Shown here: in pieces, positions 1,366-27,839 of the stretch
Layout: every line of letters starts with the position of its first letter
How positions within the stretch are numbered: the stretch's first letter is position 1
Source: Candidatus Zixiibacteriota bacterium
GTDB taxonomy: Bacteria; Zixibacteria; MSB-5A5; GN15; FEB-12
Assembly: GCA_020351995.1 (NCBI GenBank)
Contig: CP070674.1
Span: 3,412,223-3,452,092, forward strand
Direction: 5' to 3'
DNA: 39,870 bases
Translations under genes and position numbers: made by a program
Notes under the pieces: model-generated
Told to the model about the DNA's origin: nothing
Seen by the model: the letters and a program-made list of their open reading frames with translations, nothing else
The model's database searches: none

Positions 1366-1455
1366 GGAGAGGTGTCCGAGCTGGCCGAAGGAGCACGCCT
1401 GGAAAGTGTGTATAGGTAACCCCTATCCTGGGTTCGAATCCCAGCCTCTCCGCCA
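1366..1455 (+). tRNA. tRNA-Ser (anticodon GGA)
   Basis: A class II tRNA with acceptor stem GGAGAGG/CCTCTCC (1366-1372 with 1445-1451), discriminator G1452 and an encoded CCA (1453-1455). The anticodon loop CTGGAAA inside a CACGC/GTGTG stem gives anticodon GGA, reading UCC/UCU serine codons. The long variable arm (stem around GTATAGG..CCCTATC) and the T-loop GGTTCGAATCC are typical of bacterial tRNA-Ser. It is not a selenocysteine tRNA, since the anticodon is not UCA. Confidence 0.97.
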
Positions 1456-24404: not shown

Positions 24405-26885
24405 ATGGCACTTGAACTGAAAAAGCCCGAGAAACTGCGCATCGGTGTCTTTGTTTGCGAGTGCGGACTGAATATCGCCGGTACCATCGACTGTAGCGCG
24501 GTCAGCGAGTATTCGAAAACACTGGAGGACGTGGTTTGCGTCGTTCAGAACAAATACACCTGCGCCGACCCGGGACAGAACGAAATCAAAAAGGCGATCG
24601 TCGAGCACAAGCTAAACCGCGTGGTAGTAGCCTCCTGTACGCCAAAGATACACGAGCCGACTTTCCGGCAGTGTGTGGCCGACGCCGGTCTGAACCCCTA
24701 CCTGTTCGAGATGGTAAACCTTCGCGAACACTGTAGCTGGGTTCACCAGACCGAGAAGGAGAAAGCTACCGAGAAAGCCAAAGACCTTGTACGCAGCGGC
24801 GTGGCACGGGCGAGATTTTTGGAGCCCCAGATCGAAGCTGAAGTTCCGGTAACCAAAGCCGCCCTCGTAATTGGCGGCGGCGTGGCCGGCATTCAGGCCG
24901 CTCTGGATTTGGCCGATGGCGGGCATAAGGTCTTCCTTGTCGAGAAGGAACCGACGATTGGAGGTATCATGGCGGCTCTCGACAAGACCTACCCGACCAT
25001 GGACTGCTCCATATGAATACTCGGCCCCAAAATGATGGATGTCGGTCGACATCCCAAGGTTGAACTCTTCACCAACAGTGAAGTCGAAAATGTGACCGGG
25101 TTCGTCGGTAACTTCAATGTTACCATTCGAAAGAAAGCCCGGTACGTGGACGCCAACGAGTGTACGGCCTGCGCCGAATGCGCCAAAGTATGCCCGGTGG
25201 CGGTTCCTGATGAATATCAGCAGGGTTTCTCGTCAAGAAAGGCCATTTATATGCCATTCCCGCAGGCGGTCCCGTCCGCTTATATCCTCAATATGGACAA
25301 CTGTCTGGGGAACAATCCCATCGCTTGTGGCAAGTGCGCCGACGTCTGCGAGAAGCACTGTATCAATTACGACGACCAGGATGAACTGGTCAATATCGAA
25401 GTAGGTGTGGTAATTACCGCGACCGGTATGGATGTTTACGATCCCACCGAATACGACGAGTACGGTTACACCCGTTTTGACAACGTTATCACCAGTATGG
25501 AATTTGAAAGGCTTATCTGCGCCGGAGGCCCCACCGAGGGACATTTCATTCGCCCCAGCGATCGGAAAATCCCTCAGAAAATAGGATTTATCCAGTGCGT
25601 TGGCTCGCGGTCGCAGGATGGCCGGGGAAATCCTTACTGCAGCAATATCTGCTGCATGAATACTGTCAAAGACACCTTGCTTCTGTGCGACCACTATCCC
25701 GGCGTGGAAGCCAAGGTGTTCTATATGGATATGCGCGCTTTCGGTAAGGGCTTCGAGGACCTTTATATGCGCAGTAAGGAAGAAGGCGTTAAGTATGTCC
25801 GCGGAATTCCGGGTGACGTGGTTGAGGACCCCGAAACCCGCAATCTGCTCCTTACCGTTGAAAACACCACCACCGGCAAGTTGGAGAAGCACGAGCTGGA
25901 AATGCTGGTCCTGTCACAGGGAGTAATCCCCCGGCAGGATGGTGACAGCATTCGGAAACTGCTCACCCTTTCCCAAACCTCCGATGGTTTCATAATGGAA
26001 TCCCATCCCAAGCTGAAACCGGTCGATGCTCCTACCAAAGGTATTTTCATCGCCGGTTGCGTGGAGTCGCCCAAAGACGTCAAGGACAGCGTTACCCAGG
26101 CGAGCGCGGCGGCGGCACGAGCCAGCATCCTGCTTAACGCCGGTAAGACTAAAATCGAGGCCATTACCTCGCAGGTCGATACCGAGCTGTGTAATTTCTG
26201 CGGTATCTGTGCCAAGGTTTGCCCCTATAACGCGATTAGCGCCTCCGACCGGAAGGCCGAAAAGCCACCCACAATTATTGCCGCGGCCTGTGCCGGTTGC
26301 GGTGCCTGCGCGGCCGAGTGTCCGCAGGACGCCATCTTGATGCGTCACTTCCGCGACGAGCAGATCATGGCCCAGGTCGAGGCGCTGGTCAAGGACGATC
26401 CGGAAAAGCATCTTCTTACCTTTGCCTGCAACTGGTGCAGCTATGCCGGCGGTGACAATGCCGGGACGGCCAGACTTCAGTACCCAACTTCGAGTCGTCT
26501 GATTAGAACGATGTGCTCCGGTCGTGTTGACGAGAAGTTCGTCATGCATGCGTTCAAGATGGGTGCCCCGATGGTACTGGTCAGTGGCTGTCACTTCGCC
26601 GACTGCCACTATATCAACGCCGTTCACTGGACCCAGAAGCGAATGGACCGGCTGTGGAACAAGCTCGACAAACTGGGAATTCGTGTTGATAGGCTGCAGC
26701 TGGAGTGGATTTCCGCGGCCGAGGGTCAGAAATTCGCAAAGGTTATGCGCGAACTGGAAGAGAGGGTCCAGACCGTGACGGACGAAGAAATTGAGCACAC
26801 CAAGAAGGTACTGGCCGAAGAAGAAGCCAAGGCTGAGGCCAAGAAAAAGAAAAAGGCGAAAGCTGGAGCGGAGGTGAGCGCCTGA
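24405..26885 (+). CDS. hdrA: HdrA-MvhD fusion flavoprotein with selenocysteine
   Basis: An 826-residue selenoprotein if TGA at 25014-25016 is read as Sec204. The order is: N-terminal HdrA domain with G-V-F-V-C-E-C-G (about 13-20); Rossmann G-G-G-V-A-G; C201-S-I-U204 at the HdrA CxxC position; ferredoxin clusters C253/256/259/263 and C300/308/311/315; the F-I-Q-C-V-G-S-R segment; C-terminal ferredoxins C596/599/602/606 and C629/632/635/639; then an MvhD domain starting at C675-N-W-C678. It ends in a Glu/Lys/Ala-rich tail, probably disordered or coiled. The first and last parts are ordinary HdrA and MvhD; only the Sec codon interrupts them. GGGAG sits near the ATG. The downstream zinc-ribbon ATG overlaps its stop. 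Confidence 0.93.
25014..25054 (+). promoter_or_regulatory. UGA(Sec) codon with bacterial SECIS-like hairpin, hdrA copy 2
   Basis: TGA (25014-25016) is followed after exactly 20 nt by the perfect stem GGATGTC/GACATCC (25037-25043 with 25048-25054) with loop GGTC (25044-25047). Compared with copy 1, a C-G pair has become T-A (25042 with 25049), with a silent CGG-to-CGA arginine change restoring pairing. Confidence 0.88.
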
Positions 26886-27180: not shown

Positions 27181-27630
27181 ATGCTCGTCAAGACAATGCT
27201 GGAAAAGAAACCCAGGGAAGTCATCACGGCCGCCACCGCGACAACTATCGACGAGGCTATGGACCTGCTGATCAAAAACCAGATAGGTTGCCTGCCGGTG
27301 CTTGACAGGGACAAAAAGTTAATCGGCATCATCAGCGACAAGGACATCTTTGAGAAAATCCACCAGACCAAAGGTCAGTACCAGAACCTCACGGTGGATG
27401 ACCTGATGAAAACCGAGCTGATTGTAGGCCTGCCCGACGACGACATCGACTACATTGCGGGCCTGATGGAGAAAAATTATATCCGGCATGTGCCTATTGT
27501 TGACGGCGATCAAGTAGTTGGAATGATCTCGTTACGGGACATCCATAAGACTTTTGTGAAAAATAAAGAGATTGAAAACCGCTACCTGATGGACATGCTC
27601 GAGAAGCGCGACAAATCCGGCGATATTTAG
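27181..27630 (+). CDS. Protein with two CBS domains
   Basis: A 149-residue protein made of a tandem CBS pair: the first unit has T-I-D-E-A-M-D-L-L...I-G-C-L-P-V-L-D and L-I-G-I-I-S-D-K-D-I; the second has I-A-G-L-M...R-H-V-P-I-V-D and V-V-G-M-I-S-L-R-D-I. CBS pairs bind adenosine nucleotides (AMP, ATP, NADH) and regulate partner proteins. AGAGGTGA lies just upstream of the ATG. It follows the hdr cluster after 143 bp with its own promoter, so a regulatory link to it is only suggested by position. Confidence 0.92.
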   Translation: MLVKTMLEKKPREVITAATATTIDEAMDLLIKNQIGCLPVLDRDKKLIGIISDKDIFEKIHQTKGQYQNLTVDDLMKTELIVGLPDDDIDYIAGLMEKNYIRHVPIVDGDQVVGMISLRDIHKTFVKNKEIENRYLMDMLEKRDKSGDI

Positions 27631-27645
27631 CGAACAACCCGCCAT

Positions 27646-27679
27646 AAAAAAACCTGACAACTCCACGGGAGCCGTCAGG
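27646..27679 (-). terminator. Rho-independent terminator (minus strand)
   Basis: CCTGAC/GTCAGG (27653-27658 with 27674-27679) and inner CTCC/GGAG (27661-27664 with 27668-27671) form the stem. On the minus strand it is followed by seven T (plus-strand A tract 27646-27652). It terminates minus-strand transcription from the right. Confidence 0.75.
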
Positions 27680-27740
27680 CCGGTTAAACTGTTGGGATTT
27701 ACTCATCAGTACCCCAACAAATAACTTGTCGAGGTAGCGA

Positions 27741-27776
27741 TTAAGTAGCAGTCACCTCACGTGTGTCTATATTCAA
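27741..27776 (-). CDS. Possible 11-residue ORF behind an extended Shine-Dalgarno
   Basis: On the minus strand GAAAGGAGGTGGTCC (around 27795-27781) matches the anti-SD tail of 16S rRNA over an unusually long stretch. A TTG (27776-27774) 10 nt after GGAGG opens a frame of 11 codons ending in TAA (27743-27741). An in-frame ATG at 27806 would give 21 residues and lie near the predicted transcript start. A promoter precedes it and a hairpin plus terminator follow. I do not know a family for the peptide; it could also be a structured small RNA with a decoy SD. Confidence 0.35.
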   Translation of the reverse strand: MNIDTREVTAT

Positions 27777-27810
27777 AATTGGACCACCTCCTTTCCCGTG
27801 TATCATAAAT

Positions 27811-27839
27811 AATATAACAGCCCTGTCTTTAATCAACAA
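27811..27839 (-). promoter_or_regulatory. Sigma-70-type promoter for a short minus-strand transcript
   Basis: On the minus strand TTGTTG (27839-27834) and TATATT (27816-27811) are 17 bp apart. The predicted start near 27804 and the terminator ending near 27646 define a transcript of about 160 nt. Confidence 0.55.

Follow-up and report, generated by a model that had tools for sequence, protein, structure and literature searches.

A unit of about 155 nt on the minus strand (27801-27646) of a Candidatus Zixiibacteriota genome is, as judged by sequence comparison, a real stand-alone RNA with its own promoter and terminator. The 39,870-nt stretch of contig CP070674.1 that was analysed is referred to here as the window. 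The RNA is homologous to Rfam family RF02471 (Ms_IGR-5, 'Actinobacteria sRNA'), and the comparative evidence places it in at least four distantly related phyla – Zixibacteria, Acidobacteriota, Spirochaetota and Actinobacteria. It contains a mini-ORF that is very probably translated, with strong comparative support, and covariation supports a fold in which the RNA 5′ end, the codons and the stop codon take part in helices P0, P1 and P2.

Layout and distribution of the RNA

The original prediction had described a promoter, a Shine-Dalgarno (SD) sequence, a tiny ORF, a hairpin and a terminator. All are found, in that order and on the minus strand, as follows:

27809..27836, minus strand: promoter, with −35 TTGATT (27836-27831), a 16-nt spacer, −10 TATTAT (27814-27809) and a T run upstream (scan and relatives' layout)
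27646..27801, minus strand: RNA unit, about 155 nt, with helix P0 and the conserved ACAC marking its probable 5′ end and the terminator T run its 3′ end
27797..27800, minus strand: P0 5′ strand CACG, the RNA 5′ end (unsupervised fold and pair counts)
27781..27795, minus strand: extended SD GAAAGGAGGTGGTCC (core invariant in the Zixibacteria alignment; 13-mer unique in the genome)
27741..27776, minus strand: mini-ORF, TTG (27776) to TAA (27741), 11 codons, (M)NIDTREVTAT* (conserved frame, length and stop)
27758..27761, minus strand: P0 3′ strand CGTG, codon 6 and the first base of codon 7 (pair counts)
27749..27756, minus strand: P1 5′ strand GGTGACTG, within codons GAG GTG ACT GCT (covariation and unsupervised fold)
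27742..27747, minus strand: P2 5′ strand TACTTA, overlapping the stop codon (covariation; register common to Zixibacteria, Acidobacteria and Spirochaetes)
27711..27718, minus strand: P3 5′ strand GTTGGGGT, part of the originally predicted hairpin (Zixibacteria comparison; interleaved with P2, giving a pseudoknot)
27700..27705, minus strand: P2 3′ strand TGAGTA (covariation)
27691..27699, minus strand: conserved strand AATCCCAAC, of which 27691-27698 is the P3 3′ strand (Zixibacteria comparison)
27682..27691, minus strand: P1 3′ strand CAGTTTAACC (covariation and unsupervised fold)
27646..27681, minus strand: intrinsic terminator, 14-bp stem and T run, T-tailed as predicted (scan)

The promoter is present, but its earlier reading as TTGTTG-17-TATATT gives way to TTGATT-16-TATTAT, which fits the layout in relatives, where a T run is followed by TTGA..GTTATT/TATAAT..(T)ACAC. 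The SD is as exceptionally long as had been claimed: it is one G-U short of a perfect complement to the usual 16S 3′ end, which we take to be the general bacterial sequence and not the host's own. In the 3.6-Mb genome its 13-mer RAAAGGAGGTGRT turns up a single time, at the mini-ORF locus, and the SD lies in a loop closed by P0; the RNA appears made to bind the ribosome with unusual tightness. The unit's neighbours are an uncharacterised gene (DUF2934/DUF5335-like) at 28410-27919 and a CBS-domain gene at 27181-27630 that is convergent with it. Elsewhere in the window, 25032-26885 (plus strand) encodes a 617-aa protein with 4Fe-4S domains and an FlpD (methyl-viologen-reducing hydrogenase delta subunit) domain, and 1366-1455 (plus strand) is a tRNA-Ser (GGA), the sole tRNA. 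Outside the window, a non-16S stretch (locus L207, G000:C1:3592758-3592906, minus strand) matches SSU_rRNA_bacteria at 54.8 bits; it looks structured, precedes a small Cys-rich, zinc-ribbon-like ORF, and gave no Rfam match when scanned alone.

The window matches RF02471 at 27644-27801 over the full length of the model (1-184 of 184; E 1.1e-8) with 42.8 bits, below the gathering cut-off of 45; relatives score up to 63.1 bits, and 10 of the first 17 loci pass the cut-off. When the 270-nt region was used as a blastn query, 17 of the 41 genomes searched gave matches, its own genome included. Across the Zixibacteria phylum the RNA was matched in 42 of 132 genomes, always as one copy, and the RF02471 cut-off was passed in 25 of the 132. 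RF02471 matches were present in 27 of 119 genomes of the actinobacterial phylum, and the exact pattern occurs, as single copies, in at least six of 198 Spirochaetota and at least seven of 247 Acidobacteriota genomes, both of these counts being lower bounds. A pattern scan of named genomes returned mostly Actinobacteria among the matches listed (at least 120), plus Acidobacteria and one Spirochaete. No plasmid or phage homologues were found by blastn.

Homology with Ms_IGR-5 (ncMSMEG15794c) runs from end to end, taking in the 5′ ACAC, the extended SD, GUGAGGUGRCUGC, the stop-codon helix region, the 3′ AAUCC..CAG..ACC and the terminator, and the RF02471 consensus itself holds an ORF, UUG..UAG (MIDLWTCEVAAR*). 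RF02471 is described as an actinobacterial sRNA, whereas the host here belongs to the Zixibacteria and its RNA includes pseudoknot P3; moreover, the Rfam structure lacks the P0/P1/P2 fold that covariation supports. Published transcripts and ribosome footprints come from actinobacterial homologues only. In M. smegmatis, Ms_IGR-5 and ncMSMEG15794c overlap (PMC10454040); transcription has been shown in S. lividans (PMC8079986), S. avermitilis has it as an sRNA transcription unit (PMC8780764), and ribosomes leave footprints on the homologues of both M. abscessus and M. smegmatis (PMC4974804). The authors of the last study left coding open because non-coding RNAs can be protected too. Our literature search on Ms_IGR-5 found no description of an ORF or function in the accessible text of the papers, and no mention of the ORF in that of the RF02471 literature; searching by peptide strings or the mycobacterial gene name returned nothing relevant except an M. 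smegmatis cold-stress paper.

A conserved reading frame within a covarying fold

The predicted 11-codon frame is confirmed in the window, and mini-ORFs of 10-17 codons are found elsewhere. A 21-codon version from an ATG at 27806-27804, which had been offered as an alternative, is ruled out: this ATG precedes the conserved 5′ end of the RNA, the base-paired ACAC starting at 27801, and is not conserved.

Among 133 unique 5′ regions, 127 have a start codon in frame with GAG GTG, as compared with 28 and 30 in the other two frames, and in-frame stops between the SD and GAG number five, against about half of the sequences or more for each other frame. The stop codon (TAG, TAA or TGA) falls exactly five codons past GAG in all 133. 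The distance from SD to GAG occurs in all three mod 3 classes (37, 38 and 39 nt in 23, 32 and 27 Actinobacteria, respectively), and the length from start to stop is fixed, at 12 codons in 83 of 86 Actinobacteria and 11 codons in 30 of 33 Zixibacteria. The stop rule is also obeyed in 24 of 25 sequences of a set selected by the Rfam model, independently of the choice of pattern. In an IMG/VR viral-contig control, 14 chance matches to the SD plus GAGGTG were obtained, none with the family stop position that essentially all true members have; all were rejected as family members. The kept frame, start and stop lend strong comparative support to the translation that had been proposed for the tiny frame.

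Starts vary among the phyla. In Zixibacteria they are TTG (23), ATG (9) or GTG (1), and six sequences lack a standard start, all with an in-frame ATT after the SD; some actinobacterial mini-ORFs start with CTG, ACG or ATC, and those of Acidobacteria and most Spirochaetes with ATG or GTG. Weak starts (TTG, in-frame ATT, CTG, ACG, ATC) often stand behind an extreme SD (e.g. loci L014, L031, L049, L221 and L229), an arrangement in Zixibacteria and Actinobacteria copies that is reminiscent of IF3-discriminated starts.

Unguided RNAalifold analysis of 39 Zixibacteria sequences found P0, P1 and P2, and together with the pairing counts this strongly supports the proposal of a structured small RNA. 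P0 joins the RNA 5′ end, CAC(N), to (N′)GUG in codons 6-7. In a set of 190 sequences drawn from four phyla, 704 of 760 P0 positions are paired as against 639.5 ± 4.4 after shuffling (0/1000), a count that overstates independence among related sequences and is not a probability. The fourth pair is G-C in 83, A-U in 55, U-A in 10 and C-G in 7; in six Spirochaetes taken alone, P0 is not significant. P1, which is interrupted and mostly invariant in Zixibacteria, pairs GGUGRCUG (codons E-V-[AT]-) with the 3′ CAG..ACC beside the terminator, and P2 pairs the stop-codon region with bases just 5′ of AAUCC. P1 and P2 together are 98.2% paired, with double changes at 5 pairs and in 12 cells versus 1.8 and 2.4 in shuffled controls (0/500, to be read with the same caution), and slid controls collapse. 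The P2 register is identical in Zixibacteria, Acidobacteria and Spirochaetes (98, 85 and 97% paired); in Actinobacteria this simple register fails.

The hairpin predicted at 27690-27696 with 27713-27719 as 7 bp is present, but its conserved form, P3, has 8 bp (27691-27698 with 27711-27718) and pairs GUUGGGGU with AUCCCAAC. Of the two P3 strands, P2 encloses only the 5′ one, so that P2 and P3 would form a pseudoknot. Zixibacteria and most Acidobacteria (GUUAGGAUU/AAUCCNAAC) have P3, which was not detected in Spirochaetes or Actinobacteria in the comparison of homologues. The first helix of the Rfam structure (SD with GCUGCC) is 89% paired overall, with no double changes and one pair broken in 18%; in Spirochaetes and Acidobacteria this SD-codon helix is 58-67% paired. 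A GUCC/GGAC hairpin within the SD loop has support in Actinobacteria only. For the free window RNA, free-energy folding favours an alternative structure by 1.8 kcal/mol (−53.3 vs −51.5); with the region under an initiating ribosome masked out, P1+P2 is predicted to be the fold of lowest energy, and a ribosome at the stop codon abolishes it.

The original prediction had suggested weighing the peptide frame against the RNA structure in relatives: frame, start and stop are kept and the fold covaries, and the peptide residues are mostly not kept beyond what base pairing accounts for.

A proposed ribosome-gated RNA and its rivals

We give an even chance to the explanation that this is a stand-alone, ribosome-gated, trans-acting dual-function RNA. 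Starting from the comparative evidence for conservation, promoter and terminator, SD, frame and fold, we infer 30S docking, opening by the ribosome and an output in trans. A 30S subunit would dock on the looped-out SD, and an initiating ribosome would just fit upstream of P1. An elongating ribosome would have to open P0, P1 and P2, ending at the stop codon within P2. The RNA would thereby switch between a folded, untranslated form and an open one that is translated, with the 3′ segment AAUCC..CAG..ACC exposed or hidden accordingly, and so may report ribosome or initiation status to a partner in trans.

The main rival, which may overlap with the gated model and which we regard as distinctly less probable, is a 30S decoy or sponge, in which the very long SD holds 30S subunits and releases them slowly, and weak starts keep initiation inefficient, thereby tuning or hibernating ribosomes. 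The genome-unique SD 13-mer, its position in the loop closed by P0 and the frequency of weak starts (TTG or ATT in Zixibacteria; CTG, ACG and ATC in some Actinobacteria) all suit such a role; however, a pure decoy would have no need to keep frame and length or to fix a stop inside a helix, and the ATG or GTG starts of Acidobacteria and most Spirochaetes also speak against it. Ribosome titration, one of the functions originally suggested, is possible but unproven. A microprotein gene, in which a peptide of 10-17 residues ending EV[AT]xx is the product and the fold only tunes expression, seems improbable to us. All four phyla share a conserved frame, start and stop, EV is kept throughout, and codons 2-7 in Actinobacteria have a synonymous fraction of 0.369 versus an expected 0.236, an excess confounded by pairing since it comes largely from one codon that is also base-paired. 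Zixibacteria peptides, on the other hand, show no synonymous excess but fewer such changes than expected (0.092 vs 0.175), and from phylum to phylum the peptides vary in length and in their N-terminal residues. Through P0 pairing, the residue preceding Glu follows the RNA's fifth nucleotide, which is why it is Arg (CGU) or Cys (UGU); P0 thus explains the R/C/S before EV, as P1 explains EV[AT]. Since the peptide is mostly unconserved beyond RNA pairing, translation rather than the peptide seems to be selected, and the peptide is probably a by-product. The translated frame of the suggested microprotein is strongly supported, and its peptide as a product is weakly supported, most residues being explained by base pairing.

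An incidental open frame in a non-coding, base-pairing sRNA would accord with how the family is annotated, as an sRNA, by Rfam and by studies of mycobacteria and Streptomyces, but is highly improbable given the frame statistics over the 133 5′ regions and the chance control with viral contigs. The slightest chance of all, we believe, belongs to a leader-peptide attenuator of the downstream gene, which is already largely refuted. A tiny ORF overlapping a helix strand beside a terminator resembles attenuators, and the next gene is codirectional in some genomes; yet in the window and in many relatives that gene runs convergently, its family differs almost each time, and the RNA has been published as an sRNA. 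The genes on either side of the RNA in Zixibacteria are of a different family in almost every case, and the few neighbour families that recur in the actinobacterial set are the synteny expected among close relatives. Nor does the terminator overlap P1, and no antiterminator is visible. With unconserved neighbours and no competition between terminator and P1, attenuation in cis is unlikely, and the idea that the RNA regulates its neighbours is not supported, since they differ in nearly every genome.

Related systems and wider significance

Small RNAs that are both translated and regulatory include SgrS/SgrT, SR1 and RNAIII, in which the ORF is largely apart from the regulatory part; in the window RNA, by contrast, the core helices are made from strands of the ORF, and the family is found across phyla. 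Leaders that act by translational attenuation, such as TnaC, the Erm leaders and whiB7, likewise have a short ORF whose translation remodels RNA structure, but the window RNA probably regulates no downstream gene in cis.

A further parallel is CC2171 (RF01867) of Alphaproteobacteria, which is possibly a translated RNA analogous to that of the window. It too starts with GAAAGGAGGUGAUC, and in the members fetched an extended SD is followed by a 24-26 codon ORF (VSHC...*), the stop changing (TAG, TGA, TAA) with its position kept; codons CAUUGUC can pair with a 3′ GACAAUG adjoining the terminator. It differs in lacking the GAGGUG motif and in having another ORF and other helices, and its model scores 14.7 bits on the window and 28.3 on locus L008, short of the gathering cut-off of 75. 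The CC2171 loci examined (L236-L240, about 600-780) are on replicons of Methylobacterium, Azospirillum and Skermanella. CC2171 seems to be an analogue in architecture, without demonstrable sequence homology, and is a lead rather than a case of membership. Tentatively, and at somewhat below even confidence, we suggest that Ms_IGR-5-type RNAs and CC2171 are two branches of pan-bacterial 'mini-ORF RNAs' – single-copy RNAs with extended-SD 30S docking and a frame of 10-26 codons that is part of their core fold, whose translation would switch a trans-acting function tied to ribosome status.

Single-copy RNA families conserved across bacterial phyla usually have core functions, as do RNase P, SRP, tmRNA and 6S RNA. 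An RNA known before as an uncharacterised 'actinobacterial sRNA' has a wider distribution and very probably a translated mini-ORF, which are the new elements here, and its stop codon and coding strands form the core of its fold. Direct tests are possible in easy hosts such as M. smegmatis, Streptomyces and Caulobacter. If true, the proposed explanation would amount to a new type of connection between ribosome activity and regulation by RNA.
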